From assembly GCA_026874595.1 (NCBI GenBank), contig CM049306.1, positions 18,841,019 to 18,905,018 of the forward strand: DNA of 64,000 nt. The letters run 5' to 3'. Each line of letters begins with the position of its first letter. Positions within the stretch are counted from its first letter, which is position 1. The notes beneath the pieces were generated by a model that was given only the letters and a program-made list of their open reading frames with translations, was not told where the DNA came from and made no database searches. This document shows, piece by piece, positions 10,301 through 54,213 of this stretch. The position numbers were made by a program, and so were the translations under genes. Origin of the DNA: Sipunculus nudus (taxonomy: Eukaryota; Annelida; Sipuncula; Golfingiida; Sipunculidae).

Positions 10301-13300
10301 GTAATGTAAAATTGCTTCATGTCAGTGGCAAATGTCTAACTTTATACTCTATACTGAACACAGAATCATTATATATCTACAATTTTACCTCCAGTGATAA
10401 TATCAGCTTCCCATTGGCCAGACCAAGCAGCATCTGTGTCATGTGAGCATACCCTTCAGGAGTAATATTGTATCTACCCTGTACCACAAAATGCAAAACA
10501 AAGAAATATTAAATATAATGCTACAAAAATATACCAAATACAAACTTAATTTGTTATTGGCCAAAATACAATAAAGAAGTTTTATAAGGCAAAAATGGAT
10601 TAATGATACCTTCTCTCTGTGCAAATTACCTTACAGTAACATGTTATAAACATGACTGAACATTTTATTTGTTGAGCATTTTTTATTTGTATTTGAGTAT
10701 AGCACACAATTTCAAAGCACATAAATTAATCTACGACTGCTCCTGAGAGGGGTCAATGGCAGAGGTTTGAGAACACACCACAAAAATTAACTGCTCCATG
10801 GAATCACCGTTCCAATTTTTCATGAATCATTTCATGGGGGGGGGGGGGGTATAAATGAGCACCAAGTCCCCTGTAATATTGATGATAAATAAAGCTCTTG
10901 TTTGAACTGCTTCAAAGAAATCATTATACAGTGAAACCTGTCTAAAGTGGACAGTCAAGGGACTCAATCATTTTGTCCTTAATAGTGAGGTGTCCTTATT
11001 AGGCAGGTTGACCTTGGTTGATAACTCAGGGATTATAAATAAGACAACGAACAGCTGCAAGAACATATTTATTGTATTATATCATGTTTCATGTAGATGT
11101 ACAGCATATTCATGCACACATCATGCATTTAATAGTCATATACAAACTGTGATTATTTTTACTTATATCAAGTAGTAAACAATATGAGGAGAAAGGTCTA
11201 TGAAACTATCCGTAGAAACAACATTCATAAATTCTTCTGCAAGTGCACGTACGCTCTTTTTCATGGATTCACTCAGTCAAATAAGCTCGACTTTTCAGAT
11301 AGCTTAAGTTCCCGCCTGAAGTATGTGTGGTGCCACCTGGCGGTATTGTCTTAACTATCCTGTTCAGCTGTCCCAATGCAATAATATCAAAGATAACTAG
11401 ACATTTCTTGGCACCGCTGGTGCCATGGTATCGCCAGACAAATGATTGTCTGAGAATGAAATAATAATATCTGTTATATTTTGTTTCACATCATATTTTG
11501 TTCTTTGTAATAAATTGTTATATTGTCATAAAAATTGTCATTTGTTCCTTATCAATAGCATAAATTGTGGAAAAACAAGAAAATAGAGTAGGGGGTGCCA
11601 CCATGCAGTTCCCAGCAAATGACTCATCACATTACCCATATCTATCTATATGCATAATATGAAAGATATCTGCCAATTAGTTTCCAGCACATGACAACAC
11701 TATCCAACAACTTTTTTATTTTTATTTTATAATGCTGACAATACTGTCAAGTCCCATATAGGCAACATTCATGAGCCATTTTAAATAGTCTTCATCCAAA
11801 AGTCAAGACCACTCTCAGAGGAAAATGATCCAGTTGTGACTCTGTGGTACACCCAGTGCACTAATTCATTTATCACTGACCATCATATCTATTTATAGAA
11901 TCTGACCATGGCCCAGAACTGCTGATGTTTGGGCAAAACATGATGCAACACCATGTGCAGACCACTAGCTGAAGCAATCCCCCAGGTTCACTGGAGATTT
12001 TCATGATTGTTGGAGATTTTTACCATATATGGCAATATTTAAAGTCAAGTCCACTCTCATATGCAAGGTCAGGACCCAAATTTAAATATATCTCATCCCA
12101 TAATCCAAATCTATGTATATGCATAATATAAAAGAAATCTGTCCATTAGTTTTTGACTTATAATGCTCACAGTGCTGTCAAGTGGCCCTTTTTAAGATAT
12201 TCATGATTTTATGTTTTTCACCAAATATGGGAATATTCAAGGTCAAGGTCACTCTCATAGTCACGGTCATGACCCCAAATCAATAAACTGCATTCCAAAA
12301 TATCCAACATTTGAAAAAAAAAATTAAATAAAAAAAAAAAATAATTTAAATTAAATTAAATTTTAAAATTAAATTTAAAATTAAATATACCTCATTCCAT
12401 AAACCATATCTATATACATGCATAACATGAAAGAAATCTGTCCATTACTGTTTGACTTATAATGCTCACAGTATATACTGTCAAGTGGCAATGATGGGGT
12501 ATTCAAAGGCGCAAAAAACAAGAAAAGGACAACAGGTGGCACCACCTATCTTCTGCAAAAGACAAAACTATCCAAGATCTTCCGTCAACTTGATTTTTGG
12601 ACCAATCCATGCATCCCTTTTTAAGATATTCATGATTTTATGTGATTTTCACCATATATGGTAATATTCAAGGTCAAAGCCACTCTCAAAGGAAAGGTCA
12701 TGACCCCAATTTTAATATACATCATCCCATAACCCATACCTATGTACATGCATAATATTAAAGAAATCTGTCAATCAGTTTTTGACTTGTGATGCTAAAA
12801 GTACTGTCAAGTGGCAATGATGGGGTATTAAACGGCACAAAAACAAGAAAAGGATACTAGGTGGCACCACCAGTTTCCGGTATATGACATCACTATCCAA
12901 GATCTTTGTCCAACTTGATTTTTGGATAAATCCATGAAAGATTTCTGAAGATATTTAAGAATTTGTGTGATTTTCCCCAAAAATGGATCTATTCAAGGTC
13001 AAGGTCACTCTCCTAGTTGAGGTCATGACCCCATTTTAAATAGGCTTCGTCCTCTCACCTATATCTATAAATGTGTCAAGTTTGAAAAAGATCCTTGAAA
13101 TATAGTTATTGTGTCCAAAAGAAATCTCTGCGGCGGCGGCGGTGGCGCAACCGTGCCTAAACCATAGTATCTCCAGACTATGTCTGGCGATACAATGACA
13201 ACGTTGATAATGTGAAGATTGTAATGGCTACGAACCTGGGAACATTCGTTTTTTATAAGTGAATGTAGCTTTAGCCTTAAATAAACTTTCTTTAATGATG

Positions 13301-16300
13301 GTTGTTTGGTTTGATTTGCTTTGATGTTGAAGACGCCCGAGATTAAACGAACCTCGAGGTGGCACGATACTTGTAACTACAGAGCGAGCACATGGTTGAT
13401 ACTCAGCAGATCAGTCTGAGATTTACTGAGCAAAACTAATTAATTTATATCAAACAGCCTGCTACAAGAAAGTGGCTAGTTTACAGTTAGATATTGCATG
13501 GTGAAATCAGGGACGCACGGATAATCGGCAGCCATTTAATCATTATGACCCCGCGGTTGGGCGAATAATATGCAGCTTCGCAACGTGTGAATGATCAACC
13601 GTAAAATATAGTGACAGGAAGTTTACCGCTTCACCCTTGCTGTGTTTTTATCCTATGAGCACATCACACCATGACATGAACACCTACACGCATTAAGGTA
13701 ACAACTGGGAATTGCTCAATCCTTTGTGTTCAAGTCCCGCGAACAACAGTAACGGTGGCCTTGATGTTGTTCGGGGCGAGTGATCAGTGTCCTCCGGAGA
13801 TGGCGTATCATGTCCGTATTTGTCAGGTTCATTAACTCTAAGAATGTTAGTTTGAGATGACTGCTGTCCATTGTCTGCAGTAGTTAGGTGTCCGCCTTAT
13901 ACATAACATATAGGCAACTTTGGAGGGACTTAACTATATTGTCCGTTATAGCCAGTTGTCCGCCTAAGTGAGGTGTCCGTTAGACCAGTTTTCACTGTAT
14001 GTATGATCAGTGCAATATTTCATTCAAAAAGGTGTCATACTAAGTGGATTAACAATTGTCAGGTTCATATGCACCATTTCTGGAATTGTTGCATATATTT
14101 CTTTTCTTCCTACCAGCACACAAAATACCACATATTTCATCTTGACTGGGAAAAATGCCTGACTGTTTCTGATTTTTGGTCACTGAATCTGTAGTACAAT
14201 TTATTTTACTTTTACATTGCGTTGACAGTGTATACACAGATACCTACCAGCGGGTCTCCCTGTGCAGCATCAAATCCAGCTGACACAAGGACAAGCTCTG
14301 GATCGTACTGAAATAATATAGTAATATTAAATTTTAATTGGCTGACTGACAAAAAACATGAAACAAGTACCTATCTGCCAATTGACTGTTGACAACTCTT
14401 ATTTAACAGTTTCATTCCATTATATATGATCATCTTAAAAATGTTTCACCAGCATTATTATTACCATCATTATATTGTGAATATTTATTTTACATTTTGA
14501 TAAAAAACACGTATATCAAAATGATCAAAAACATGTATATCAAAATTAGTTAGGCAGATATGGAGTTAACATTCAAAGGTACTGTTTGACAAACTCTTTA
14601 CCTAATTAACAGAGCAATATTATTAAAGTATTACAAAATAACTTTGGTAATTAATGTTATTAGGGCAAAGTCTCTTGTTTCGTTGACCCCACTGCTTTCA
14701 GTAGATCATGAAAATGACTCAACATTTTACAGTATAAGTGTCGATAAAATAGAAAAGCACTGAAAATTTAGAAATATCTAGAATTTTATGTATCACAGTA
14801 AAACAATCACCTCATAAGCTATTGGCATAACCACATGATGGAATGCTGCAATGTATTCATCATTACCCATCGGCACCTGATATATGGAAAAAAAATAATC
14901 AATGATTTTTTATTTTACAATATAAATATATGACAAAAACTGGTGGAACATTCACATTTCTATTGGCATTGGCACATGTATCACAGATCAAAATGAACGA
15001 CCAGAGAAATCACTCAAATGCTTTTTACACACAATTACACAATATTATCCTTTCATTCATGATGAATGTCTCAGGATTGCTTTGAAATATAATGATAACC
15101 TGGTTTTCTATTTTATTAAGGCTCATTGCAAAAGTGTTTTTTCTGACCTGGAGGCCTTGCACAGTGCTGACATCTGGTGACAACATACAGAACTACTTGT
15201 CAGGAATACTGGTTTCCATTTGTCTGTATTTCTAAACTAGAATACAGGTAGTCGACAGGCGACTACTTATATCCGCCTAAATCAGAGTGGAACGGGTGAA
15301 GTGTTGCATATAAGCATGGATGTCTGCAGCCAAATTGTGTATGTAGGTTGCGCTACCTACCAAAAAATCCAGAAAGCTCTATACACATGCAAAACTTTGG
15401 CCCAATCGGTCAAACGGTTCCCAAGATATGAGCTTGGATATCTGCTGCATAAACTAGAATGCAGGTGGCGCCACCTGTCATAAAATCAAGAGAGCTGTCG
15501 GGGATGTATAAACTTGCAAAATTTTAGGCAGATATGTCAAACCACTGCCGAGATATGAGTGATTTTATCCCATGGCAGACAAACAGATGGGAGCTGTGCA
15601 AACATAGCTGCAGGTGGCGCCACCAGTTTTGCGTATGATAAAGAGCTATGTGAGATTTATACACATGCAAAATTTTGGCCCAATCGGTCAAACGGTTCCC
15701 TAGATATGAGCTTGGATGTCTGCAGCGTAAACTTGATTGTAGGTGGCGCCACCTGTCATAAAATCAGAAAAGCTATCCAGGATGTATAAGCATGCCGAAT
15801 TTCAGGTTAATTAGTCAAACCACTGCAGAAATAGGAGTGATTTTAACCCAAGGCAGACGAACAGATGGACACTGTGCAAACATGGTTGCAGGTGGTGCCA
15901 CCATTTTCGGTGTATGTTATAAAGCTCTCCAAGGGCTACATTTGTGCAAAAAAATTTTCCTGATCGGTCAAACGTTTCCTGAGATATGAGCTTGGATGTC
16001 TGCAGCGTAAACGTGAATGTAGGTGGCGCCACCTGTCATAAAATCAGAAAAGCTATCCAGGATGTATACGCATGCCAAATTTCAGGTGAATTAGTCAAGT
16101 CACTGCAGAGATATGAGTGATTTTAACCCAAGGCAGACAAACAGATGGACACTGTGCAAACATGGTTGCAGGTAGCGCCACCATTTTTGGTGTATGTTAT
16201 AAAGCTCTCCAAGGGCTACATTTGTGCAAAAGAATTTTCCTGATCGGTCAAATGGTTCCCGAGATATGAGCTTTGATGTCTGCAGCGTAAACGTGAATGT

Positions 16301-19300
16301 AGGTGGCGCCACCTGTCATAAAATCTGAAAAGCTATCCAGGATGTTTACGCATGCCCAATTTCAGGTGAATTAGTCAAGTCACTGCAGAGATATGAGTGA
16401 TTTTAACCCAAGGCAGACGAACAGATGGACACTGTGCAAACATGGTTGCAGGTGGCGCCACCATTTTTGGTGTATGTTATAAAGCTCTCCGAGGGCTACA
16501 TTTGTGCAAAAAAATTTTCCTGATCGGTCAAACGGTTCCCGAGATATATGGGTTTATGTGTGGAAACAGACGCACAAACGGACGCAGAGCGCAAAGGAAA
16601 GGTCAGAGGTCAAAACAAAATCGGGGCGCAGCAGTTCACATGTGACCCGAACATAATCCCGGGTTTCGGAAAATTCCGCCCAGCGGTTACGGAGGAGTTC
16701 TCCGGACACCTACGCGTCGGTGGCGGCGGCGGCGGCGGCCAGCTGAAAACATAGTATCCGCAAAACTCTGTTTTGGCGGATACAATTAAGAGTACACTTC
16801 TCATTCTGGGGATCGACTGTTGTATTTTGAGATTGTTTCTTTGTAACTCTTCTAACTGTGAACCATGAGGTAAAACTGGGCTGGCCTCTTTGATTTTTTA
16901 TGAATTAAGTTACAGGATCCTCTTATTTCAGAGTCAATCTACACAAAAACACTTCATAATAGACATCACATTAAGATCAAGCTGCATGGCAATTCAAAGT
17001 CAAGATTTTGTAACCCTCTATCTGCATCACATGACCTGTGGTCAAGTAACTGATGCCTAATATGTTCTTTCTCACATTTTTAACCAAACAGAGCACATGC
17101 AGATTTAAATAGACCTTGGAATTTATTATTACCTAATTGCCACTCCATGGGTGCTGACATTCAGTCCCTAACTTGACCCTGACATACATGACACACTCAT
17201 AATGGAAATGAAGGTTAATTATCCCTGTCCCATTTCATGGCATTTTGACACTGGATCCTTCAACCTTGACCGTGACCTACTTAATATGACTGACGTTTAT
17301 GTTAGCCACTACTTACCCTCTCATCAAACAGAATGTTGACATTGAACCCTTAAATTAAGACTTTCCTTTGACCTTGACCTACTTTATCATGATGGACATG
17401 AAGGTCAACAATCACCTTCCCTGTCACTTCATGGAATCTTGACCTGGAGACCTTCCTTTGACCTTTACCTTCTTTATTATTTTAGATATGAATGTTAACC
17501 ATCACTTACCCTGCCACTCCATGGAATGTTGACATTGAAGCCTTCACCTTGACCTTGACCTACTTTATCATGATCTGCATCTGTGTGGCAAGGATAAAAG
17601 AACCCACTGTCATAGCGATGTAAAGATATATTCAGCACACTGTAACAGAGAAAAGGCAAGAAATTAGAAAATATAAATACACAATATCTGACACCATTTT
17701 CTGGAAAATGTTTATCAGTGTTTTTTTGTTTAGTCTTTTCAACATGTACAAGTGAGACTGATCAATGAAATATGATTAACATGGCAAAATTAAAGACAGT
17801 TGACTTCAAAATGTTCAGAATCATAACATGTAATTACGTTACAACAATGAAGCCTCAGTTCAAACTCATACTATTAATTTCAAAAAGACAAAACTTCAGG
17901 TGGAAATGATCACACAGATAAAATAATAATAATAAAAAACTGATCTCCAGAAATTCTGTCACATTATATTCATTGTAAAACAAAAAAAAATAACTAATAT
18001 ACAAATTTAAAGTAAATTATAACTTCTGAATCATACACTGTAGTTAAAACAACATGTGCCTTATTTAAATCTGAATAATGACACAAAGATATATACACCA
18101 GAAGTATGACAAATAACTCTTGCGACCAGGAGTGCTGCTGAAATTTACCTATCTGCACGAGCTTATTAATAAGTTAAACAAGAGCACCGCAAAAATGCAT
18201 AATACACCAGTTGTGTATCTGGTGACCTCTGACCTCATTAAATATGCATGAATTTTGATGAGAATGTAATTCAGATGAGAAATTGTTGGTAAATATGTAT
18301 AATGAGTTTCATGTAAATCAATAGGATTTTTGTAAGTCACCAAGGTGCCTCAAAAGTGTGGTGACCCCTGACCTTATTTAATATGTGTGAATTTTGATGA
18401 GAATGTCAATCAGGTGAGAAAGTCTACTGGTAAATATGTATAAGTTTCATGTAAATCCATAGGATTTTTGTAAGTCATCAAGGTACCTCCAAGGTGCTGT
18501 GACCTCTGACCTCATTAAATATGCCTGAATTTTTATGAGAATGTAAATCAGGTGAGAAAGTCTATTGGTAAATATGTATAATGAGTTTCATGAAAATCCA
18601 TAGGATTTTTGGTAAGACACGAAGGTGCCTCCAAAGTTTGGTGACCTCTGACCTGATAAATATGCATGGATTTTGCTGGAATTCAAACATTAGTGAGATA
18701 TTTTATTGATTAACATTACTGATGAAATTTATCAAAAAAACCTTTTATATTCTTCATAATTTATCGTGGTGACACCACAAAGTAGCCAAGTGACCCGTGA
18801 CCTTATTAAATATGCATGGACATTGCCCATAATTGAACTTGGGTGAGATTATCTGTTGGTAAGTACTTATATGGTGAGTTTTGTGAAAATTCCTCAAAGC
18901 CCTAGTAAGTTATGACAGTAACACTAAAAGTTAACAGACGGATGGTCAGATGGAAGGACAAACAGAATGTGGGTATACCATAATACTGCCGTCATTAGCC
19001 AGGTGAATAAAAAGCTTCTGATACTAGGACGCTAACCCTGCATGAATGATAGTGTTCAAAGTTGGTGCCATAGAATGATTAATTAACCTATGTTATTGCA
19101 AGGAACTTCTGAAAATATTTTGAAAAACACCAATGACATCATAGTATTGTTGTCCGAGACATGAAATGCAATAAACAACCAACCCCCCCCCCTCCCATTA
19201 TATAAATTGGTTTTCAGACACCTTTCAGGGAAATGGGACATGGACGGACATCATTGTCCTCTGCACATCATGACTCGCACTCAAAAGATGCTCATATCTT

Positions 19301-20127
19301 CAAATGCTACGTCCTGGTGAAAATATGTGCAACAGAAATCCTCATTCCGGGGGTAATTTTACTCTTGGATTTACACCAAAATTGAACTTCTTGGAGATTT
19401 TTACAATACCAACATGTATGATAAATTTCAATAACATCTGTGATGCCATTCTTCAGATATATTGCAGACACACTTTAAGGATCAGATGAAAACAATGACC
19501 TCCACTTTATTTAAACAGCATCTGGAGTGCCATGACACATATTAATTCAAACAATCTTTGTTGCTGTGTTTTCTGTGAGAAACAGATTAAGAAAAATCTT
19601 ATAATAAGTTTAGTGTTGTTGCATTTTATGTAAATTATATTTATCTTTAATGGTGATGCCAGAGCCGTTATTAAATATAATTTTTTTTTGTCAGAGGAAC
19701 TGATAATCACACTGATTCGATCTTGTCACAACCATCAATAATCACAGAAGTCCTCGTTAATCGTTTGATATATCATGCCCACTCTATTCACTCACATGAA
19801 GCATCAAATAAATTGGAATTTACCTCTTGTCTTCTTCAAACATGTGTTGCGTTCCATTGCCATGGTGAATATCCCAGTCAAGGATCATAACCCTAGCAAA
19901 AGTAACAAAAATTTCGCTCATGTAGTGTGTGGCAATCTATAACCATATCACACTGGTTTTACATATTAATATATCACACTTGATCTTCCATTAAACCTCT
20001 GATAACATGGATGAGCAAAAAATACTACACACAAGAGCTGAGAAGCACACTAGTATCATACTGTATACAAGTACTTTAATTGTATCCGCCAAAACAGAGT
20101 TTTGCGGATACTATGTTTTCAGCTGGA

Positions 20128-20161
<34 letters not shown>

Positions 20162-23100
20162 GCGTAGGTGTTCGGAGAACTCCTCCGTAACCGCTGGGCG
20201 GAATTTTCCGAAACCCGGGATTATGTTCAGGTCACATGTGAACTGCTGCGCCCAGATTTTGTTTTGACCTCTGACCTTTCCTTTGCGCTCTGTGTCTGTT
20301 TGTGCGTCTGTTTCCACACATAAACCCACATATCTCGGGAACCGTTTGACCGATCAGGAAAATTTTTTTGCACAAATGTAGCCCTCGGAGAGCTTTATAA
20401 CATACACCAAAAACGGTGGCGCCACCTGCAACCATGTTTGCACAGTGTTCAACTGTTCGTCTGCCTTGGGTTAAAATCACTCATATCTCTGCAGTGACTA
20501 GACTAATTCACCTGAAATTGGGCATGCGTATACATCCTGGATAGCTTTTCTGATTTTATGACAGGTGGCGCCACCTACATTCACGTTTACGCTGCAGACA
20601 TCCAAGCTCATATCTTGGGAACCGTTTGACCGATCAGGAAAATTCTTTTGCACAAATGTAGCCCTTGGAGAGCTTTATAACATACACCAAAAATGGTGGC
20701 GTTACCTGCAACCATGTTTGCAGTGTCCATCTGTTTGTCTGCCTTTGGTTAAAATCACTCATATCTCTGCAGTGACTTGACTAATTCACCTGAAATTTGG
20801 CATGCGAATACATCCTGGATAGCTTTTCTGATTTTATGACAGGTGGCGCCACCTACATTCACGTTTACGCTGCAGACATCCAAGCTCATATCTTGGGAAC
20901 CGTTTGACCGATCAGGAAAATCTTTTTGCACAAATGTAGCCCTTGGAGAGCTTTATAACATACACCGAAAATGGTGGCACCACCTGCAACCATGTTTGCA
21001 CAGTGTCCATCTGTTCGTCTGCCTTGGGTTAAAATCACTCATATCTCTGCAGTGGTTTGACTAATTCACCTGAAATTCGGCATGCTTATACATCCTGGAT
21101 AGCTTTTCTGATTTTATGACAGGTGGCGCCACCTACATTCAAGTTTACGCTGCAGACATCCAAGCTCATATCTAGGGAACCCTTTGACCGATTGGGCCAA
21201 AATTTTGCATGTGTATAAATCTCACATAGCTCTCTATCATATGCAAAACTGGTGGCGCCACCTGCAGCCATGTTTGCACAGCTCCCATCTGTTTGTCTGC
21301 CATGGGATAAAATCACTCATATCTCGGCAGTTATTTGACATATCTGCCTAAAATTTTGCGAGTTTATACATCCCCGACAGCTCTCTTGATTTATGACAGG
21401 TGGCGCCACCTGCATTCTAGTTTATGCAGCAGATATCCAAGCTCATATCTTGGGAACCGTTTGACCGATTGGGCCAAAGTTTTGCATGTGTATAGAGCTT
21501 TCTGGATTTTTTCGTAGGTAGCGCAACCTACATACACAATTTGGCTGCAGACATCCATGCTAATATGCAACACTTCACCCGTTCCACTCTGATTTAGGCG
21601 GATACAAGTAGTCGCTTGTCGACTACCCGTATTCTAGTTAAATACTGAATTATTTTGCAACAATTATCAAGCAGGATATCAAAATATGGGTATAGTTCAT
21701 GACTGTTCACCTGTGGGGTGTCTGATTCACAAAAGTTTCATTTTGCTTCAATTTCCCTTTCTTGAAAATCACAAATTTGAAACCCCTGCAAACATAAGGC
21801 CTACCACATTATCTCTAATATCAGGTGTATCCAGGGATATATCATATACCGTAAAATCTCCACTTAAAACCGCACTTCCGATTGAAACCGCACCCAGACT
21901 TTGCCGAAATTCCAGGCGAGACATCGCGAGGGGCTCAAATACTAAGAACCCCCCTTTAAAACCGCACCAACTTTCGCTACGGAATGATTTGACAAAAGAC
22001 ACAATCAAGCTATCATCTAGAAATGAACACGCGTAGGTTGCGACTCGGCCATTCCTGTCCACCTTTTAATTCCTTGGGCATTTAATTTAAACACATCATA
22101 ACACTTTTTTGCAGGGTCACTCAAGCACGGAGTTTGGGAAGACGTAAGGGCCGGTGAACCTCTGCCTGTTTATACAGATTTTATATTTCGTGCCGTATTC
22201 TTGTTTGCTACTGATTTGTCATTATATTTTGAAGAAAAAAAATTCTGCTGATCCATTTCAAGTCACTGTATATTTTAATTCAAAAAATGTTTTATGAAAA
22301 TTCCATTTTTCTGGAATTACTCGGAAGATTCAAATCATTTTCATACCGGTTACTTCGGTATTATCATCGTCACATCGTACGTTTACATCGCTCCATGTCA
22401 CAACTAAATATCAAAGTATATGAAGTTACCTTGTAGAGATACGCACGTATAGGAAACATGACGCTTGATAACGAGTGATTTTAAGGTAAAATTAAAGTGG
22501 CCAGTCGGGGTAAGCAAGTTTTTTTCTTGAAGAAAGTTTCCGTGTGAGGAGCCATTTTGTCAAGGCAGTGTTCACGCAAGGCACGCTAGGACGAAATAGG
22601 TGGCTGTTCTGTTTACCACCCACCGCGTTCAGCCGTTCAAAATATTCTTAGCAGAATACCGGGGCATTTTAGCACATGGCGGCACTCAACCTTGATTTTA
22701 AAACGATCGTCAGCCATTGTGTGACTCCTTACGATGTCAGCTTTTTATTCATTTTACGTTTTAAACAAATAATCATTGCTAAATAATGCTGCAAATGGGT
22801 TTAAAGTAGGCTTTTATTTCAATTTTGCTTGACCATGCCCAACGAGGTGGGCCGCTGTGTGTTACAGCAGGGTTGTTGTTTGTCGTGGTCACGAGTTGAC
22901 ATTCCTTTCACAAGTTACATCCATACAACGTCGTGGACGAGTGGACCAGTAATGTATCTGCAGGCACCCGCTCAAACTAGGTGGGGAATGACCGAATACA
23001 AGTCTTATTTTTTGCACAAAATAAACAAGGTCAAATATGGCTTTAATAAATTTCATAAAACACACTACTTGAGTGTGTACTTCGAAACTCACGTGAATCC

Positions 23101-26100
23101 TCGATCATTGTACACATAGACGGAGGACCCGTGTATGGGGAGTTAGCACAATAAGTGACACGATAATATGCTAGACATGTCATGTATGCTAGGTATTTAT
23201 CGTATATACTGCGTTATATGAAGATGTTTTTTAGCCGCCAAAATGTCATATACCATTTGGTCTTTCCTTCGCAGTAAATTATCCAGTCTGAACGGTTAAG
23301 AATTTTCGGGTTTTCCTTTCATTATGCGCGACCCTGGTTTGGGGTCGCGCTGCAGATACTTTCCGCTACGTAGCGTGCATGACTGAGTCGGGGCCCGTCT
23401 CAATCATGGTACAAGACAAGGTTGTTGTAAACGTATTATTTGGTGACAAATACCAAAATTTTATAACAAGTTATATATCACACGAAAACTAATCAGCAAT
23501 ATTTAATTTATAAATAACAAATAATCGTAAATAATACATTTACACACGGCTCCCATGCATGCGAGACTGCTGCTAAGAACGGCCTTCGAAAGTTGCAATA
23601 TTATCGCCCACTCGCCGGCCCCAAAACGATGTCTGTCAGGAAGATATTCAGGAAACCCTTCTAGTATAAACCGCACAGTACTTTCAGGAAATCAACCTGA
23701 TTTCAAGATTTTGAATTTCTTGATTAAACCGCGGTTTTAAGTGGAGATTTTACGGTAACATATTCTGATAAGACTCTGTGATAAGCTAACGCCTGTGACA
23801 AGCAAACATACTAATATTTGGTTGGCTGGAAAGTTTTCATAACCATCACCATTATCACAGATTAAATAAAAAAATTTTCATCAATGATGCCTAATATGTT
23901 TACACTAGTAATACCTTTTCAAGCCATATTTCTTCTGAGCATATCTGGCTGCCACGGCTACACTGTTAAAGAAACAGAAACCTCTGGCTGTATGCATCTC
24001 TGCATGGTGTCCTGGTGGCCTGCACAGAATATTCATAAACATTAAATAATATGTTAAATACAATTAAATTGAGTAACATACACAATATATTTCTAAATGT
24101 AATGATAAAATTATCTTTTTAATGTCTCTCTTACAAATAGAACACACACTTGATAAAGATAAAAGTGATATCTACATGGTGCAAGAAAACATCGCTATTT
24201 TTTTCTATTGCTGCAGTGTAAAATTAAATAATATGAACATTTACAACTTACAGAATATGAGAAATATAACAATACATGGTATCCCTCATGATCAATATTG
24301 TGAGACACAATTTTAACTGCAAATTGCCAAATCTTCCTGTAAATAGTGACCTTTCAAAGTTATGTCTGACTACACCTGGTTTGACCTCTGATATACATGA
24401 CTATAGTTGGTTTGACCTTTGACATACCTGACTATACCTAGTTTGACCGTAGACATATCTGATTTCACCTGGTTTGACCTTTGACATATCTGACGACCTT
24501 TGACATATCTGACACCATGCTGGTTTTAACTTTGACATACCTGACTAAAGCTGGTTTAATCTGACATACCTGACTACAGATGGTTTCATCTTTGACATAC
24601 CTGACTACAGCTGGTTTCATCTTTGACATACCTGACTACAGCTGGTTTCATCTTTGACATACCTGACTACAACTGGTTTGACTTTTGACATACCTGACTA
24701 TAGCTGGTTTAATCTTTGACATGCCTGACTACAGATGGTTTCATTTTTGACATACCTGACTACAGATGGGTTTCATCTTTGACATACCTGAATACTACTG
24801 GTTTGATCACTGAAATATCTGACTACAGTTGGTTTCAACTTTAATATACCTGCCTACAGCTGGTTTTATCTCTGACATACCTGAATACAGCTGGTTTCAT
24901 CTTTGACATTCCTGACTACATTTGGTTTGACCTTTGACATACCTGACTACTGCTGGTTTGATCATTGACATACCTGACTACAGTTGGTTCGAACTTTGAT
25001 AGACCTGAGTACAGCTGGTTTTATCTTTAACATACCTGACTATGGCTACTCCATTCTGAGAATTTCCTGATAACACATCATCTACCACACACAATGTACA
25101 GCCACATGCCAGGCTGGCAGACTCAAAGGCATGCTGCAAACAAAGAAAGAAACATTAGTCAAACAGCTGGCAGAATCAAAGGCATGCTGTAAACAGAGAA
25201 AGAAACGTTAATCATACAGCTGGCAGCCTCAAAGGCATGCTGCAAACAGAAAATGAAACATTAACAACACAGCTGTCAGCTTCAAAAGGCATGCTGTAAA
25301 CAGAAAATGAAACATTAACAAGACAGCCGTCAATACCAAAGGCGTGCTGTAAACAGAAAATGAAACATAAACAAGACAGCTATCAACATCAAAGGCATGC
25401 TATAAACAGAAAATGAAACATTAATCACACAGAATTAAGAAACAGAATTTCAATTAAGAAAATTGAAATTACAATGCAATTGAACAATATACAAGACAAA
25501 TTTTACATCCAGAAATTGACCCTAGCTATTTCAACAATTTCAAAAAAAGGTTTAACAATATAGATCCAACGCTAAAAATATATTGCTGAAATCTGAATAT
25601 TTGTCTCCTATAACTAAGGTAAGTTTCAGTTTAACTGTAAACACAGGCATCTGAATTAAAGATGAAAAATTATATTTATAGCTCATTCCCAATCAGGGTG
25701 CCAATTCTAATCTGGAGATTATTCTTTAAAACTTAAAACTGATTGCACAATTTGACACAAAAGTGAATATGGGACTAAACGCTTAATATGAGTTGAAAAA
25801 CCAACAGTTTTATTCACAGTCTTCCGGTTCTTCTTGAGCTTGTCGCTTTGATTGCCAGCCTCATTTTTAAAGTTCCATTTATTAGTTTTTTTTTTGTGGT
25901 TTTACTGTTTTTTCAACAACTGTTTCTTCATATATTTTCTCACATATTTATTTCATTTAAAATAAACATGAGTAATTTTAAAGGAAAAGTTTTAGTTTCA
26001 TTCTGATAAATCTACTGTATGCTTTATTTCATTATTACAGCTTAACAATTGGACTTCAACAGTCAATTTAGGAGAATATCACTAAATTTCACTGGGCACC

Positions 26101-29100
26101 ACCATATGGAACAGACTATATATCTGAAGAGCAGCCTGACCTCACTGACAAAGATAGAATCCATGTCTCTCTCCATCAGAGACAGCTCTTCATCTTCCTG
26201 ACCTGACCAGCTCTTGGCATATTCTAGATAGCTCTGTCTGAAACACAGTTTACAACATGTAAAATTCACTTTGTAATCACACAGAAACATGTTTTACAAT
26301 ATGTAAAATTCACATTGTTCTCACACAGAAACATGTTTTACAATATGTGTAATTCTCATTATTCTACCACAGAACCATGTTATACAATATTTAAAATTCA
26401 CATTATTCTCATAGAGAAACATGTTTTACAATATGAAAAATTCACATTATTCTCACACAGAAACATGTTTTACAATATGTAAAATTTGTGTTATTCTAAC
26501 ACAGAAAAATGGTCTACAATATGAAAAATTCACATTATTCTCACACAGAAACATGGTTTACAAAATGTAAAATTTGAAGAGGTACAACAGTTCTGGAACA
26601 GTACAAAGAATCTGACCAACTAGAGGGAGTGTCGGATGTTTAAAATTTTGAGCTGGATGCACAATGTGATACATTGGTCTAAAACAATTCTTCCAAAAGC
26701 CTTGAATAATTCTACATACCCATGTACAAGCAGCAGTTCTTCATCTGTGACCAGTCTTGGCTACAAGAACAGAAATAAAACAAATTATAATATGCATATT
26801 ATCTGTAATGTGACCTAAGGTTTGGTTGAACTAACACAAGTACCTTCAAAAGCGAGAAAAAATCTGTTATCTTAGGAAAAAAAGTTGCATGTTCAAAAGA
26901 TATTTAATTTGTAATTAAACATCAATTTTTATAATTATTTAAAACAAAATTTATCTGCCTTTCATCTGATCTTGTTAGTGAATATTTATACATGTATGTA
27001 CTATTATTTAATATGCCTGTATGTTATATTTAGACAAGGTTACAATAATATATGAAGCATGTTACCATAAAGAACAAAATGTAACTATGTATGGTCTCAT
27101 CCACAGGAATAGAACTTTACTAAGAACGAAGCTATAGCATATAATACTGGTATCATTTGCAATGTTTACATCCAATGAGTCAGTATTGGTTATGATAAAC
27201 ATATGCAATCTCAGACAGGAATCTCACAGTGAAAGATAGAATTTTTATTTTTATTATTTAGGCAATAGGAAACTTATAATGATATTTTTGTCAACATAGC
27301 GAACTTAATCAACCAGTGTCAGATTACCAGGGAGACAGGAAAGGTCAATTACAAAGTCTTATATTCAAATGTCTTGTACAGTTAATGTTTTTCCACAAAG
27401 TGAAGATTTTGTCTGGTTATCTGTAAGATCTAATAAGTCCAGCTTACCTCTAATACTTTACATCTCTCCACCAGACCAAGTGTCTTGTGTTTTTCATATA
27501 TCCTTTTTATTCTCTCAGGTCTCTCTGGATGGTCCCTGGATGAAAACAGAAAATTACTTATTTAAATTGAAAAATATAAGTCTAACAATGTATTAACACT
27601 GTTGCAGTTACAGGATAATGCGAGGTGTAATATTTTAACAGAATCAATTAATATACAGGATCACAAACTGCCAAAATAATCTTCTTGAAAACATTTTGCC
27701 TATCCAAAGAAAATTTTTCTGTTGACAAGAAATCTTGAAGATATTTTTTCTTGGTTTTTGGCAGCATGCTGATGTCAAGAGAATTTATCTAGATTTTCTT
27801 TGTCTCGTCACAAGATGCTTTATTCCGATTCGCTCAGCTGCTCTCCATCATGTGATGTTACCCTATAAATGATTACTGTAAAACAAATGTAAAAATTCTT
27901 ACCGATTATTTCGTATTTTATGTCGCATCATGCGCTCATCGTAAACTAGGCATGTCCTGAAATTGTAAATTACATTGTTTAATATAACAGTTTTGATGGT
28001 GAAATACCATAGTTGCAGGTTAATTGATTAATTGATTACCAATGAATAAATTATAATCATATACAAATTTTACTATTTTATTCATTCAAAGAAGCAGGAA
28101 CAGTTTATCATTTAGTGGTCATTATGAGCCACTGAAAATTTGTCAGCTGATAAACCTTACATGGTCAAAATGTTGTTTCTCACACTGACATTCTGTGTTT
28201 TATGTTTATATATTACATATTTATATTTACCTTGTTACAGTTTATTAAACATTTACAGTTACAGTTTGTTAACCTTTACTGAATACTACAGTAAATATTG
28301 AAAGCAACTGATCTCAGTTTACTGAATATAAAGATACTGTTGATTTTCTTATAAAGAAAACCTCTGAACTTCAGAATCTTGAGAATACCTGTTTGGTGGT
28401 TTGGATAGATCTACCTCTCTCTTCAGCTGCTCTATCATTGCAATGACCTGGTCTTTATCTTTTACATACAGATGATAATCTCCATAAATTTCAAACTTTT
28501 CTGGACGGTTTTCTGGAGTTGCAAACACTACATTCCTGAAAAGAATATAAAGGAAGAGGACTAAATGTCTGACATTTAGTACACAGTAACTGCTGAGCTA
28601 TGCTTGTGGTTGATATATCCCCCATTTTTCCCACAAGGCAGGACCTAAATAAACAAGAACCTGGAAATAATATCCATGTCTAACATCTATATGCTACACT
28701 TATATCCATATACTTGTGTCTAGGAGAATAATATCCTCTGCCAGGAGGGTATGCATTCATCCCTGTTCGTCTGTGTATTTATGTTTGTGTGTGTGTGTTG
28801 TTCAATACACAACTCTAGCAATCATGAAAAGAATCTCATGAAATTTTCAGGGCATTTTGGGAATGGGCCAATGAAGGATTGATTAGATTTGGATCCGGCA
28901 CATGATCTGGATTCTGGAACATCATCAAGGAATATTCACAAATATGCAGTTACTTATGCACAAATGAACCTGGGAATAGAGGTTTGAACAAGTGAATGCA
29001 AACAGTTTTGGGAGCAAATCACAACAGGGACCTAGGCTCCCTGCATGGCAGAGGCTTGCATTCCTTAGAATGCAGATTTCTAGTTTATCTATATAACCTA

Positions 29101-31943
29101 GGAAAAAATTTGTTAATCAATACTTATGAGTATACAGCATTCAAAATAAAACTGCAGTTCAGTTACCAACTTACAGTTAACCAAAAGCAGTAGAGCTTGG
29201 CAAGAAGCCTGGAACGTGGCTGTTCCTATAATTTACCTCTTTGTCAGTAATGGTCCCGGGGTAGTAATACTTACTGAGGTCTCTCTTCATTATCCTCCCA
29301 CATCTCTGCTCCCTGATTGAACGCAAAACACTTCCAATGTGGAGACAGGGCATCTTGAACATGAAGAATTGTACTGACCATACTAAAAAACAACCAAATT
29401 AAAAATATATACTATTTGCACAAGGTTTTAATATTTTGTGGCCTTAAACATGTTCTGGTATTTTTCTTATTACAATATGCATTAATTCACTTTTCATTTT
29501 ACATTCTTATATATAATGCCAAAAAAATCTAACAACCATTTTTATTTTTCCTTACCAGTACTCCTTAGTAATACAATGACATTATCATGGACAACAGTCT
29601 ATTTTACAATCTAATCCACTATCCCTATCAACATTTTTTTGCAATTAGTTTTTTGGTATGATAAACTGGGTAAACAAAACTTGCACCAAAACTAAACAGA
29701 AAGATTGAAAACATGGTGTAAGAGCATGACAGATATTGATGTATGCCCATGCAAGGTGCTATTTAAAAGCCTTGTATTGGCAGTTTCAATGAGTTTGAAC
29801 TGAAGTTCAATAGCCATATGCACTTTGAACTCAATATCTTTCCGAAAAAAGAGAGAAATATTGACCGCCTCACCTATCACATGGTGAACCAACTGAACCA
29901 ATGTGTGGACTCGGGTCATCTAATAATGCTCTCAAGGTCAAGGCCACACCTTCTGTTAGAGACTCTAAACAATAACCACCCTGAAAGTAAGTCAACAGCT
30001 TAACACAATCATCATTTCATAAGATACCAGGTGTAGTATGAAAGAAACAAATTGCATGTAGAATTATTTTTGTGCATATAGGATATGTTTATACATTGAC
30101 AAATACATTAAACTGTAGCTGCCCCTACTTTATATTTACTATTTTTCTCAAAATAGTTTTAAAAAAAATAAACAGAAAAATCAACTGCTCAACAGTTGGT
30201 ATGCTCTCCGCATGATACACCTGGTTCAGACACAGGGCAACAACAAACCTTGATATAGTCAGCTAAAGACCCATGGACAAATCAATTTCAAGATAGGGAG
30301 AAATTCTAATCATGGATTACAACTTGAAATTCTGGCATAACAGATGTTATAGTCTTCAGACCTTGGTTACATCCCATTGTAATAATCCCGATTCTTCTGT
30401 CATGTATCTATTGATATGCTAAATATGTGGTGCAACAGATACAGCTTTCAAATATAAGGTCCTAAGTCACATATTTAAACACAGAAATGTACCTTTTAAT
30501 TTTTTTAATTTTTACTGCTCACAAGTTGTTCGGCAGGGACTATAATGATTGCTAAACAAAGAAAGAACTGTGTGTGGTGTAACAGGTCTTATTTGCAAAA
30601 GAAGTTATCTGGTCAGACCAAATTTCAAAGCAATCTATCCAACCATTCTTGAGAATACTGAACCTCCCATCTGAAAACAACCAGCTGAAATATCATGAAT
30701 TCATATAAGCCAATATCACATTACATCTTTAATATACAGACCTATTATTCAAACAAGAAGCATAAGAAAAGACCATGATCCACTTCATACTCTGCTTAAA
30801 TATATCACTTATTTTGGAGTCAAGGCAATGGTTTGCATATATCTGCTGCCTCTAAATGGCCATCCCTCATCCTGATGATATATTGTAACATTTCAGCCAA
30901 CTTCAATTAAAATACAAACTTGTATATATATAACCAACAAAGATACCTGATGAACATTAGGAAGTTTAACAGGCATTACCACTGTTACAAGAAATCTTAC
31001 ACTGGGCACATGTAGAGTTAATGTACAGGAAAACCAATAACCTTTGACAATAACCTTTGAAAGCACCTGCCCAACGGTCAAGTATCATCTAGCTTTTCCT
31101 TGCCCTACATAAATTTTTACTTGCCCTTCAAAAATATCCTTCACAGCCAGGAACATGAAGTGGTGTTCAACATGAGTGTTTTCTTGTATATTAAACAATA
31201 TTTATGTTTATATGAGTTTATTTGTTAATTATAATTCTCATTATTATATTTACACATAAAGAAGAATAATCAACAAGATTTCCATCCTCTAAGGATGAAA
31301 ATGGCTAAATGAATATTAGTTAAGATTAAGGCTTTTCACTAAAGGCTTATGTTGGACCTGTTTGTACAGCAGGGCAAGAAGGAACTGACTTTTGTTTGCC
31401 CTGCCAACACTTTCTGAAATTTTTACTTGCTGCAGGCAATGTCAATCCCTGAAAGCCTCTACTTACAGGCACCTGTCTAATATGGCCACCTATCTATTAC
31501 AGGCAAAACCTCAGGTTCTGACCATGTCAATATTTGATTTGTTCCACTGTACATTTATTATGAATATTATGGATATGGGAGTATAAGTCTACTGTTCGAT
31601 ACATACCTCTAAAACAATACAAAGTTTTCCTTCTGCAAATGGCTTAAGCAGGTTTATAAAGTGTGCATAACAGGCGGGAGTGACCTCCATCTCTCCCTGA
31701 AATGTATGATTTTCATTTAAATGTGATATTGTATATAATTCAATGAAAATATGTCATGAATAATAATGGGTGCAGTGCCCTATAGCTCTATCATTCTGTT
31801 ACAAACACTGGAATTAAAAGCTATTTAATAACAACTTTGTGCAGATTGGAAATTTAAAAAGTACATCCCACAGACTTGCTCATACTATCTTGAATATCCA
31901 TACAGATCAATGAACATTATGGTGCTGCTTTCCACATCACAAA

Positions 31944-32014
<71 letters not shown>

Positions 32015-35000
32015 CATTATATCGCCACGAAACACTCTGTATTTAATCCAGTGACTGCTGTTACACCCCTAAGTCCCACCACCCAATAAAACACCAAGGA
32101 GTGCTTATTAAGAGAGCAGTGCAAAGAAGGTCAATTATCATATCTTTAATCTCATTTGCAAATCACATTTACTTATTGAACTGATTCATTCTTCTCAGAG
32201 TTGTGGAACAATTATCATAAGTGTACTTCATTTTGGCAAATGTACTGGAATAGTACTTCAAATTTTTTAACGTTGTAACCAGCCCCTAAAAGCCTTATCT
32301 GGAAGAAGAAGATAAGCTGTTACTTGAACACTAACTGGTCACTTGTCCACAAACTAGTCACATGATCTGCAATTCCTACCTCTGGACATCCGAAAGCTGC
32401 ATCATACCCACTGGACACCAAGATAAGTTGAGGGTTAAACTGAAACCAGAGAGAGTTAACCTCTTAAACATACAAATCTAAATGTACTTTTTTTGCTCTA
32501 ATAATTAAATTGCAGTTATCAATAATTGTAATTATCACTAAATTTAAAGCTTGTAAAAAGGATGTAGTCAATAGGTCTCTAAATACATGTAATATCCAGA
32601 TTCCTTAATCAATATTATTTTTACCATTTTGATTCTAACAAACACTGCAGAAGCTAAGGTAAGTTTACTCCAATGAGAATGATTCAGTTTGACTTCATAT
32701 GATTATAACAATTGTCATGAGTACTATAATTCTTATGATCCTTCTGTCAGGGCAGTCAAATGCTGTGCACTAAATCCTTCATGAAAAAATACTCAGTTAA
32801 CTCTCTACTTTTCCGATTAATTTTTAGACATCAGACAAAGTCTGGCACTCTTTATATTTACATTTCAAGTAATATCTTGCTAAGTTTCATTGTACTCTTT
32901 CTGGGTACCAGTTATTCATCAGTTATTACTGAGAAAGTTTGAGAATAACTGAAATCAGAAAAGAAAATAAATATGTGATCTGTCTGACCTCAGAAAAACT
33001 AGTAAAACAAGGGCTTTCTAGCTGTCGATGTCAAGCTCCAGTGGACCTGAGAGGCTGTCTGAACTAATACAGTTCAATTAAACTGCAGCTATTCACAGAA
33101 TCTTTTTGATGTGCAGAAAACATCCCTCATCCCTTTTTCACAGAAACCTGAACTGAAGACAGTACATTAGTTAAATTATTGTTCCACTGCTATAAATCTA
33201 AGAATCTAATGCAACAACTTTTCTTTTTTAAATTATACAAAAGTCATGCAAAATCATACTTCATATGCCAAAGGCAGGAGTACTTGCTGAAAAATGGCCA
33301 GATAGTCAGCATTCCCCATACCAATCTGAAATTTTAAAAAATCAAGATTCAGACCAATTAAATATACAATCACAAAGAAACAAGACCCCCAAATATATTT
33401 ATGTTATACTAATATCACTCCACTGATAATTGGTTGCTGAACTATGAATTAAGAATTAAAATGATTACTGTCAACATAAATGGCAAACTATCTTGTATGG
33501 TCAATTACCCGCATCAAAGTTTATCACTGATCTCTAAAGTGTATGATTAAACATTGTCATTGTGTTATACGTATGAATAATACTGTCACTGTGTTAAGAA
33601 CATGATTAAAAACTGTCACTGAAATAATTATTTTCTGAATCAACAAATGTGAATAAAAGCATACACTCAGACATTTTTTTTTTCATTTGACAGGAATAAG
33701 GCATCATGCATTCAATTTTCCCCTGCAATTAACATATGTAAAGACATATCCCAGTACATTTAACTATTTTTATTCTATTGTGATACTTTTCCTATATAGT
33801 CCTCCAAACTGGAATAGTTCAAAGTATTTCTATGCTCAAAAAAGTCGGCTGAAGTCATTAAATTGTATTTTGATATATATTCCCAGCAAGCTGACCTTGT
33901 TTAATGGTACGTTGATATTGTAGCCTTTTCCTGGTCCTTCTCCGATGTAGTCATAATCAGACTCTCTCAGATTTGGCCAAAATGTGCCAAATTCATACCG
34001 ATGTATGGAAAAATACATAACCCTTAAAAAAATCAAGCATATTCATTCTACCAAAAACTGAATATGTATTCAGTACTGCAATAAAACCTACTTAGTGTAT
34101 GTATGATGATTTAAGCCTTGCTTTTTTTAAAGTAAGCCATAAATCCACTTAACTCTGCTAATATCTGCATTACAAGAGCACACACTACAAAAGGACATTT
34201 TAATACAAGCATTTCTGAGTACACTTGTCTATTTCTTGAGAAGTTGCCATAATTCTGAATCAAAATAAATGAGTTGAAAGTCTATAAAATGTGTTGTTGT
34301 TTACTGAACCTGAAAAATCAACTTTTACACCAATTATCATGATCTCCAGAAATACATTTTTGTAATTAAATTAATAAAGTTAATAATTTAGAATAAAAAT
34401 GCATTTTTAAAATTCTTATACAAAAACAAAATAAAACTAAACATTTAATATGAAAAAAAAACAACAAAATAATAGGATATTTATATTTTGCATCAGCCGA
34501 AGAACTGTTAAAATTTAAGATATCACACTCAAAATGAAATAATAAGTACTGACCTTGGGTCATCATAGAACATGTACTGGGAGGCTTGACCATGGTGGAC
34601 ATCCCAGTCTACAATCAGTATCCTGTATACAGAAATCAAAAGTCAATCAGGAGCAGAAGATTCAATGTTTTATGTAGTGATGTGACAAAAACCCAGTGAC
34701 ATTCAATCACCATCTTATAATAAAAGTTCAATGTAATTATATTATAGGTAACAAATTTTTTCATGCATTATATATATACTAATTTTAACACCATATGACT
34801 TAATAAACAATGTACTTTTAGAGCAGACCTGACTAAAAAGAAATTTAAAATATCAAAACAAAAATATAAAAGCCAAAATCTTAAGTCATGACATCTTACC
34901 AAATGCCAATCCAACAAAAAGGTTGTTTTTGACCTGTATACTGACCTCTCAAGTCCCATGTTTTCCACAGCATGTTTGGCAGCTATGGCAACATTGTTGT

Positions 35001-38000
35001 AGAAGCAGTACCCACAGGCCTCCTTATGGGTGGCATGGTGACCAGGAGGTCTGAAAATAAATTAAACTACAAGGAATAAGGACAAGCAGGATCTGTATTC
35101 ATACATACAGTGAAACCTGTGTTATGAGACCACCCAGGGGACTGGCCAAAAGTGGTCTTAATTTATAGGTGGTCTTATAAGACAGGTCAGTTACGAGTAA
35201 TGTGAATTCTGTCACTAATCGGTGCTCTTTCAGACAGGTTCTACTGGAGGCCCCCACTTGTGCCTTATGAATTGGTTAGAATTGCTGTCCATTAATCATA
35301 TTCTATATATCCTATTTGAAAGGATCTTTTTAGTACCCCTTTAACCATTTGTATGGGCCTAAAAATTCTCATTTTAATTTGGGGAAAAACAAACTAATAA
35401 TATTTAGAAAATAGAATACGGGTAGTCGACAAGCGACTACGTGTATCCGCCTAAATCAGAGTGGAACGGGTGAAGTGAGGCATGGATTGAGTGGCAAGGG
35501 GAAATAAAGTGTTGCATATTAGCATGGATGTCTGCAGCCAAATGGTGTATGTAGGTTGCCCCCCCTACCACAAAATCCAGAAAGCCGTCCAAGTTGTATA
35601 CATATGCAAAATTTAAGGCAGATAAGTCAATCCACTACATGTATATGAGTGATTTTAGCCCGTGGCAGACAAACAGATGGACGCTGAGCAAAAATGGTTG
35701 CAGGTGACGCCACCAGTTTTGCGTATGATAAAGAGCTATGTGAGAACTATACACATGCAAAACTTTGGCCCAATCGGTCAAACGGTTCCCAAGATATGAG
35801 CTTGGATGTCTGCTGCATAAACTAGAATGCAGGTGGCGCCACCTGTCATAAAATCAAGAGAGCTGTCGGGGATGTATAAACCTGCAAAATTTTAGGCAGA
35901 TATGTCAAACCACTGCCGAGATATGAGTGATTTTATCCCATGGCAGACAAACAGACAGGAGCTGTGAAAAAATGGTTGCAGGTGGGGCCACCAGTTTTGC
36001 GTATGATAAAGAGCTATGTGAGATCTATACACATGCAAAATTTTGGCCAAATCGGTCAAACGGTTCCCGAGATATGAGCTTGGATGTCTGCAGCATAAAC
36101 GTGAATGTAGGTGGCGCCACCTGTCATAAAATCAGAAAAGCTATCCAAGATGTATACGCATGCCGAATTTCAGGTGAATAAGTCAAGTCACTGCAGAGAT
36201 ATGAGTGATTTTAACCCAAGGCAGACGAACAGATGGACACTGTGCAAACATGGTTGCAGGTGGCGTCACCATTTTTTGTGTATGTTATAAAGCTCTCCAA
36301 GGGCTACATTTGTGCAAAAAATTTTCCTGATCGGTCAAACGGTTCCTGAGATATGAGCTTGGATGTCTGCAGCGTAAACGTGAATGTAGGTGGCGCCACC
36401 TGTCATAAAATCAGAAAAGCTATCCAGGATGTTTACGCATGCCGAATTTCAGGTGAATAAGTCAAGTCACTGCAGAGATATGAGTGATTTTAACCCAAGG
36501 CAGACGAACAGATGGACACTGTGCAAACATGGTTGCAGGTGGCGCCACCATTTTTTGTGTATGTTATAAAGCTCTCCAAGGGCTACATTTGTGCAAAAAA
36601 TATTTTCCTGATCGGTCAAACGGTTCCCGAGATATGTGGGTTTATGTGTGGAAACAGACGCACAAACGGACGCAGAGCGCAGAGGAAAGGTCAGAGGTCA
36701 AAACAAAATCGGGGCGCAGCAGTTCACATGTGACCCGAACATAATCCCGGGTTTCGTAAAATTCCGCCGCGCGGTTACGGAGGAGTTCTCCAGACACCTA
36801 CGCGGCGGCCGCGGCGGCGTGCAGCTGAAAACATAGTATCCGCAGAACTCTGTTTTGGCGGATACAATGAACTGATCTTTTCTAATCAGGACATTAAACT
36901 ATTTGTTGAAGACCTCACCTGATGATGGCCATCCCATTTCTGACCTGCAATGTAAAAATATTATCAATCAAATATATAATCTTGACATAAACCAGTTTGA
37001 AAGAAATATACATATAAAGGGAAAGACTTCAGTAAATGAAACTCTTTTTTTCTTATTACTGTTCAATTCTGTTTATTACATATTTGTTATGAAATAAAGC
37101 AACCATATATCACATTAAAGTTGCATTAACTTTACTTCTCAATAAAGAAGCAATTAATATGACTTTGGTAATGAATCAGTGGCGGATCCAGGAGGAGGGT
37201 CCAGGGGGTCTGGACACCCCCCCCCCCCCCTTTTTTAGCCGCCACAACCTTTTTTAAAGGTTTCAGACCAAATTTTGCAGCTGGACCTGGACCCATCCCT
37301 CCCCCTTTCAAGACCTAGATACTTATTCTAAGCATTATCATTAGTCCTCGTTTCGTCGGACCTCTCCTTTTCCTAAATCCTGGATCCGCCCCTGTGAATA
37401 TAACTATTTACAGATTAATTTAATGAACAGTCCATTATGAAGCAGTCTACTGACCAAAAATGCCATCTTTACCTCAGGGTTACCACATAAGATATCAAAG
37501 TAACAGTACTTACCAACATTGTTCCACTTAGTTAAAGTAGATTATAGTTAACATTTTGCTTAAGTAATTTTAAACTAATGACCAACATCCTTACTTTGCC
37601 TTCAGCCACCTGCTTCACCAGATCCACAGTGCTGCCTACAGCCAGCCTTGCAGCTTCACTGGTCTTCTGTAAGAGGCAGAAGTTGAGATATTAAAGATCA
37701 TGTACAGTTCTCAGGAACAAATACATCATTGTCAGACATGTGGTTATAACACACCATAACTCCTGCCTGGAAGTGAAACAGCTGAACTTGCTTCAATGTG
37801 AAAAAAATAATTTTTGGAAAAAATATACAACATTCAGATTTTTTAAAATTTAGGCCAAATTATTCTATTTTGAAAAAAAATATTCTCACATGTGGGCCAA
37901 AACTGAATGGACCAGTGAACTACAAATTTACATCACTATACAAGTTGTTGATCAAGAAAGGATGTGAGGATATAAATAGCAACAGAAAAGGCACTACACA

Positions 38001-53577: not shown

Positions 53578-53607
53578 CCGCGGGATCAGGGTCGGCGCCG
53601 GGAACCC

Positions 53608-54135
53608 CTACAAGAACCGGCCGGTCCAGGCGGACGGGGGCAAGTCCGGGAGAAGGACGCGAGGGCGACGTAGCCGTGGACGGGACGGAACGAGGGGCGG
53701 AGAGTTCGGGAAATCGAACAGGTCGAAATCCGGAGTCCCCCAAGCGTCGAAGATCCCCTGGAGAACCGGCGGAGGAAGAGAAACGGCTGTAAGGGTACCG
53801 AGGCGATCCCGGGAAAGGGCGTCTGCAAGGACGTTCACGGCGCCGTGGACATGACGAGCCTGAAGTGTAATACCAAGAGGGATACACAGATCGAACAGCC
53901 GATAAGTTTCCCGCAGCAGCGAGGGTGACCGAGTGCCGCCCTGCCTGTTGATATATGCAAGAACCGTCGTGTTGTCTGTCATGACGAGAACATGGCTGTC
54001 GAGGAAGCATAGAGACCAGCGTTCGAGCGCACGATGGACCACTCTGAGTTCCAGAACATTGATATGGAGCAGACGCTCCCGAGGAGACCAGAGGCCGGAA
54101 ATACGAAGATCGGCCAGGTGGGCACCCCAGCCCAA
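53608..54135 (-). pseudogene. DIRS RNase H
   Basis: WGAHLADLRISGLWSPRERL, INVLELRVVHRALE, VMTDNTTVLAYINRQGGTRS and NVLADALSRD: the D-E-D-D set of the DIRS RNase H appears intact over this 175-codon frame. Confidence 0.85.
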
Positions 54136-54213
54136 CTGAGACGCGTCGGTAAAGATCGCAAAGGCGACGGTCTGCGTGAACAGAAAGCGACGAAGGAGAT
54201 AAGACAGCCGGAG

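Follow-up and report, generated by a model that had tools for sequence, protein, structure and literature searches.

Minisatellites spanning both splice junctions of one exon in an HDAC6-like gene of Sipunculus nudus

An exon of Sipunculus nudus is bordered on each side by a tandem array that appears to be built from the exon's own splice site. An earlier note on this DNA drew attention to the pair of arrays and was aware of no described mechanism by which both edges of an exon would be amplified. The locus raises the questions of where the repeat units came from, what use of the additional splice sites would do to the transcript, and whether arrays of this kind are favored at exon edges. We analyzed a window of 64,000 nucleotides (assembly GCA_026874595.1, contig CM049306.1, positions 18,841,019 to 18,905,018 of the forward strand); coordinates are window positions unless a contig is named. 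Minisatellites that span exon-intron boundaries are known from lancelets, where, according to the available excerpts of two papers, they were named mirages in Adh3 and later reported in globin (BflGb6 and BflGb9), TnC, and PGBD5 genes (PMC3087553, PMC3902484).

Results

A tblastn search of the window with human HDAC6 domain letters as the probe revealed a minus-strand HDAC6-like gene, with exons of two deacetylase domains (CD1 and CD2) in order (Table 1). Joining 12 exons of CD2 gave a single open frame of 332 aa that matched Pfam PF00850 (E = 3.6e-98). The best PDB matches of this protein were named HDAC6, and the top chain was 5g0h, which we take to be a zebrafish HDAC6 chain. This fully open CD2, colinear with HDAC6, was obtained with the exon-proximal splice sites of the exon between the arrays (25133-25036), which is flanked by introns of 1007 and 1016 nt (calculated from the joined CD2 exon ends).

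Thirteen deacetylase matches were also detected on separate contigs (among C61-C90 and C127), in single open frames of 330 to 384 aa and with several equal scores; the contigs probably derive from bacterial cobionts. On the minus strand of the window, reverse-transcriptase-like and other retrotransposon-like open frames were recognized by eye at 47589-48877 and 53369-55039. Upstream, between 65000 and 147500 in window coordinates, minus-strand coding-like stretches were observed, partly RIM-binding-protein-like by eye, as was a coiled-coil-like open frame of 537 codons (112653-114263).

TRF and a listing of the junctions confirmed that exon 25133-25036 is flanked on both sides by minisatellites of its own splice sites. 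On the acceptor side, each unit consists of a pyrimidine-rich tract and AG, followed by about 21 exon bases that start with CATGCCTTTGA. The acceptor junctions, six in number, begin at 25399, 25346, 25293, 25239, 25186, and 25133, of which the last is the true acceptor and the first five are decoys. AG was kept in all six units, and the tract together with AG in all five decoys. The donor array comprises, beyond the true site at 25035, 22 decoy units, counted in register only and with three off-register matches left out; GT was present in 15 of these units and absent from 7. The 9-mer CAG/GTATGT (the slash marks the exon-intron boundary), identical to the true donor, occurred in 12 of them. 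The exon end common to the donor units amounted to 7 nt by exact match and 12 nt by alignment. By reading, the donor unit AAACCAGCTGTAGTCAG/GTATGT contains AGGT without a pyrimidine tract before the AG. These results bear out the anatomy given in the earlier note, i.e., a 53-bp unit with the acceptor and the first 21 exon bases repeated six times, about five decoy acceptors (exactly five upstream of 25133), about 20 copies of a ~31-bp unit with CAG/gtatgt, and a dozen or more decoy donors.

The repeats are confined to the exon edges, and there is no duplication of the whole exon as in tandem alternative exons. Alignments of the exon edges against the introns scored 37 (acceptor) and 29 (donor); when the introns were shuffled in two-base blocks, no score in 1075 comparisons was higher than 16.

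Table 1. Locations of the gene, the exon, and the arrays described in the text
Feature	Location	Strand	Details
HDAC6-like gene, recognized part	9199..44837	-	tblastn; CD1, about 44837-29874; CD2, 27956-9199
Exon between the arrays, 98 nt	25036..25133	-	Ungapped at both edges versus 5g0h with exon-proximal sites
31-bp array, 22.2 copies	24366..25042	-	TRF; 78% matches; unit TAGTCAG/GTATGTCAAAGATnAAACCAGC
53-bp array, 5.9 copies	25113..25424	-	TRF; 85% matches; 3' splice site and first ~21 exon nt
Second boundary-spanning array, 90-bp unit, 2.4 copies	17358..17574	-	Last 65 nt and donor (17509) of exon 17639-17510
44-bp array, 7.4 copies	26249..26574	-	Just upstream of the acceptor of exon 26237-26141; junction uncrossed
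Zinc-finger exon array, acceptor side, 179 bp, 2.7 copies	C1:18795201-18795680 (outside the window)		About 114 exon nt per unit
Pfam-matched donor-array exon	L037		ABC_membrane; 27.9 bits versus curated cut-off of 28 (just under)
Pfam-matched donor-array exon	L039		3HCDH_N; over curated cut-off
Pfam-matched donor-array exon	L043		LRR_8; over curated cut-off
Pfam-matched donor-array exon	L044		MAS20; over curated cut-off
Pfam-matched donor-array exon	L048		Kunitz; over curated cut-off
Pfam-matched donor-array exon	L050		Peptidase_M1; over curated cut-off

To locate the source of the units, we compared them with the whole 1.43-Gb assembly. All 10 matches to the 31-bp pattern (≤3 mismatches) and all 5 matches to the 53-bp pattern lay at the locus of exon 25133-25036, in a search that skipped very common words and scored the best candidates only, while a backward-read control of both patterns gave 0 matches in the whole assembly. 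The 1.1-kb array region matched only itself. Within the limits of this search, the letters indicate that the arrays arose in place from the exon's own edges. The earlier note had named a satellite dispersed in the genome and independent of this exon as a finding that would overturn its reading; no copies were found elsewhere among the scored genome matches, and this candidate was rejected, as both the unit patterns and the 1.1-kb region match the genome at the exon locus only. Arrays are difficult to assemble, and their copy number may be wrong, but these units are diverged (78 to 85% matches), carry the gene's own exon edge, have no match elsewhere, and sit on a 110.9-Mb contig, so that an assembly artefact or an unrelated satellite is extremely improbable.

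The effect of decoy use was assessed for one decoy at a time, paired with the true site at the exon's other edge. Used together with the true donor, each of the five decoy acceptors introduced in-frame stops. Of the 15 GT-containing decoy donors, used together with the true acceptor, 14 led to a stop within the extension, and the remaining one (+31 nt) caused a frameshift and a stop in the next exon. Any single decoy use would result in a premature stop and would be selected against. We also analyzed the variability of the decoy donors in 19 of the 22 units (three gapped, short, or divergent units, two of them without GT, were left out, and two were trimmed by one base). The G and T positions had values of 0.16 and 0.11, respectively, compared with a mean of 0.12 for the other columns. 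Conservation of the decoy GT that is no higher than that of the rest of the unit speaks against selection to retain the decoys, as judged from units that are few and related.

Two of the effects suggested in the earlier note lose ground here. Buffering against mutation is unsupported because the GT of the decoy donors varies like the remainder of the unit, and inclusion of pseudo-exons is disfavored by the arrangement of the copies, with acceptors repeated only on the upstream side of the exon and donors only on the downstream side. We also consider it decidedly unlikely that the arrays are functional, with some unproductive splicing to decoys whose premature stops tune the output of HDAC6 to a level set by copy number. 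Such a role would suit the 12 decoy donors with the true 9-mer, the tract and AG kept in five of five decoy acceptors, the premature stop from each single decoy use, and the occurrence of two arrays on one exon and of more within the gene. It does not suit the unremarkable conservation of the decoy GT or the lancelet case, in which the excerpted text takes data on Adh3 and RT-PCR of globins to suggest that regular splicing is undisturbed (PMC3087553).

Further arrays were present in the same gene (Table 1). Junction-spanning arrays occurred at 3 of 43 HDAC6 edges (25133, 25035, and 17509), where the edges had been assigned by hand (22 acceptors and 21 donors, with an additional exon and an additional donor left out). 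Minisatellites (period, 10 to 120) make up 4.7% of the gene span, boundary arrays included, and the proportion of array-bearing edges did not differ from this coverage (P = 0.32, both edges of one exon being taken as independent). HDAC6 edges lie within arrays about as frequently as minisatellite coverage predicts, and the frequency is unremarkable. Given this fit, no special mechanism for amplifying both edges is needed, and boundary-spanning minisatellites as such have already been described as mirages. The tandem-copy test applied to the edges was also positive at 317 of 2000 random positions of the gene span, which is probably owed mostly to 278-bp satellites. Arrays of a ~278-bp satellite with a GGTGGCGCCACC core were observed in both orientations in introns of the HDAC6-like gene (15405-16547, 20329-21469, and 35516-36636).

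The zinc-finger exon array was found by looking, outside the planned edge test, and has an in-frame stop in one decoy copy. When it is included, this single gene has four edges with junction-spanning arrays, of which three lie in the window, and this number may exceed chance. Among ten further candidate upstream exons (identified by codon score, with approximate edges), nine had no array, and a weak array was found beside the tenth.

We then searched the genome with a strict donor pattern (CAGGTATGT; three perfect donors spaced 24 to 54 bp) and a strict acceptor pattern (TTTTCTGTTTACAG), neither of which matches the window's own arrays. Although the donor pattern (933 matches) at first seemed far ahead of its reversed control (194), 704 and 964 matches were obtained with two shuffled motifs, the reverses of which gave 364 and 709, respectively. 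Following the result for the shuffled motifs, we dropped match counts as proof of a splice-site preference; they are unreliable because giant arrays dominate them. Counted as arrays among the matches listed, the donor pattern yielded 21 in 330.3 Mb (C1, C2, C3, and C4 up to 22.9 Mb). The corresponding counts, again among the matches listed, were 5 in 76.5 Mb for the reversed control (donor, 2 in the same stretch), 7 arrays (9 places) in 230.7 Mb for control AGTGRCATG (donor, 15 there), and 4 in 203.4 Mb for control GTARGACTG (donor, 11 there). Pooled, these three composition-matched controls predict 10.4 arrays versus the 21 observed among the matches listed (P = 0.002; P = 0.009 when places are counted).

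This excess is what would be expected if splice junctions provoked tandem duplication (e.g., through co-transcriptional R-loops or breaks) and arrays started preferentially at exon edges. However, with 10 occurrences in 296 kb versus 4, 2, and 5 for the controls, the donor 9-mer has about 2.7 times their frequency, and the twofold excess may reflect the motif's own frequency, although the supporting counts are small. Furthermore, the reversed control exceeded the donor in the stretch that they share (among the matches listed), the acceptor motif had no excess of matches (49, in 16 arrays, versus 115 for its reversed control), and the HDAC6 edges fit minisatellite coverage. We conclude that provocation by splice junctions is unlikely and that boundary-spanning arrays are not clearly favored: control motifs of the same letters form arrays too.

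Whatever their frequency, boundary-spanning arrays recur at other exons of this genome. We took 1.2 kb at each of the 21 donor arrays and compared peptides from 17 of them (all but L032, L033, L045, and L046) with Pfam. Six of the 21 combined a gene-sense frame open to the donor where the array begins with a Pfam match below E = 1e-5 (Table 1). Seven others (L034, L035, L038, L040, L041, L047, and L049) were exon-like by eye without Pfam support, including L035, whose match to PH was under the cut-off (E = 0.016); at L042, the apparent exon, also judged by eye, was on the opposite strand. The remaining seven (L030-L033, L036, L045, and L046) gave no clear exon call. In uncontrolled alignments, 15 to 50 nt of the exon end recurred inside the array for all six Pfam-matched exons, and the last 14 to 50 exon nt did so across 13 hand-placed junctions. 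The presence of similar arrays at genes as unrelated as those with ABC_membrane, 3HCDH_N, LRR_8, MAS20, Kunitz, and Peptidase_M1 matches further argues against a function of the arrays in HDAC6.

A second doubly spanned exon was considered at L047 (C3:48564569-48565768, reverse strand), where a 93-nt apparent exon lies between a 33-bp array, of about 20 copies in the stretch taken, and a 44-bp donor-spanning array. This candidate is a near-case only and was not accepted: the 33-bp array ends 20 nt before the acceptor, thus falling short of the junction, and only 9 nt are common.

Discussion

We consider it likely that both arrays are mirages, i.e., products of neutral tandem duplication that are tolerated as exon definition picks the exon-proximal sites. 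A short tandem duplication across an exon-intron boundary could arise by chance and give a minisatellite in place, which could then grow and homogenize via slippage or unequal exchange. The copy on the exon side would retain the true splice site, and additional sites would fall on the intron side only; such duplications would be tolerated because of this arrangement. Under the exon-definition pairing rule, as given in the available excerpts of PMC9225289, the true pair is predicted to win over any number of equal decoys. We infer that the rule applies to the HDAC6 exon, counting its ~1-kb introns as large, and we likewise infer the mechanism of duplication, the outcome of splicing, and neutrality.

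A bolder reading is very unlikely, namely, that splice junctions recurrently become variable-number arrays in this lineage, that the number of decoys serves as an inherited or somatic dial for unproductive splicing in genes like HDAC6, and that units with a pyrimidine tract before CAG/GTAAGT, such as those of the ABC-transporter array (L037), double as stepwise splice sites.

Each array amounts to a natural experiment that places up to a dozen donors sharing one core sequence in competition next to a real exon, and it offers a direct test of whether the nearest site across the exon wins. Boundary-spanning minisatellites, so far a lancelet feature in the excerpted literature, occur at several unrelated genes of a large genome, and this recurrence makes the proposed role of mirages as raw material for introns or alternative splice sites countable.

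Three known systems invite comparison. An AGGT is usable as a 3' splice site, and hence dual specific, only with a pyrimidine tract before the AG. The HDAC6 donor array resembles the arrays of dual-specific splice sites in human UBC in having tandem AGGT motifs within repeat units; in UBC, according to the excerpted text, the sites mark the limits of ubiquitin monomers, and splicing at them is stochastic (PMC10809524). In contrast, the HDAC6 donor unit lacks the tract and contains only ~7 to 12 exon nt, and its sites are not dual specific by this measure. Intron gain in potato RdRp, as excerpted, likewise involved tandem duplication within a gene (PMC4974935), whereas the HDAC6 arrays have produced no new intron and the exon is intact.

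The closest likeness is to mirages. In the available excerpts, these are described as duplications at the 5' or 3' exon boundary whose cluster length differs among haplotypes and which were proposed as possible seeds of new introns (PMC3087553, PMC3902484); their units measure 10 to 72 bp in Adh3 and 150 to 160 bp in globins (PMC3087553). The HDAC6 arrays agree with mirages, so far as excerpted, in having minisatellite-size units (53 and 31 bp) across a splice junction, an authentic edge beside the copies, and diverged units in which AG or GT is kept in many but not all copies. The boundary lies within the unit (~21 exon nt at the acceptor and 7 to 12 nt at the donor), and the unit is gene derived, with all scored matches at the exon locus. 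They differ in that one exon has separate arrays at both edges, with 22 decoy units on the donor side, whereas in the lancelet excerpts the two kinds of edge belong to different genes or exons. The host genome is also far larger here (1.43-Gb assembly) than that of the lancelet, which is about 0.5 Gb. We recognized no report of a doubly flanked exon, or of a mirage outside lancelets, in searches of the open-licence literature. We assign the HDAC6 arrays to the known mirage kind, to which they add an exon flanked on both sides, a high number of copies, and recurrence at unrelated genes of one large genome.
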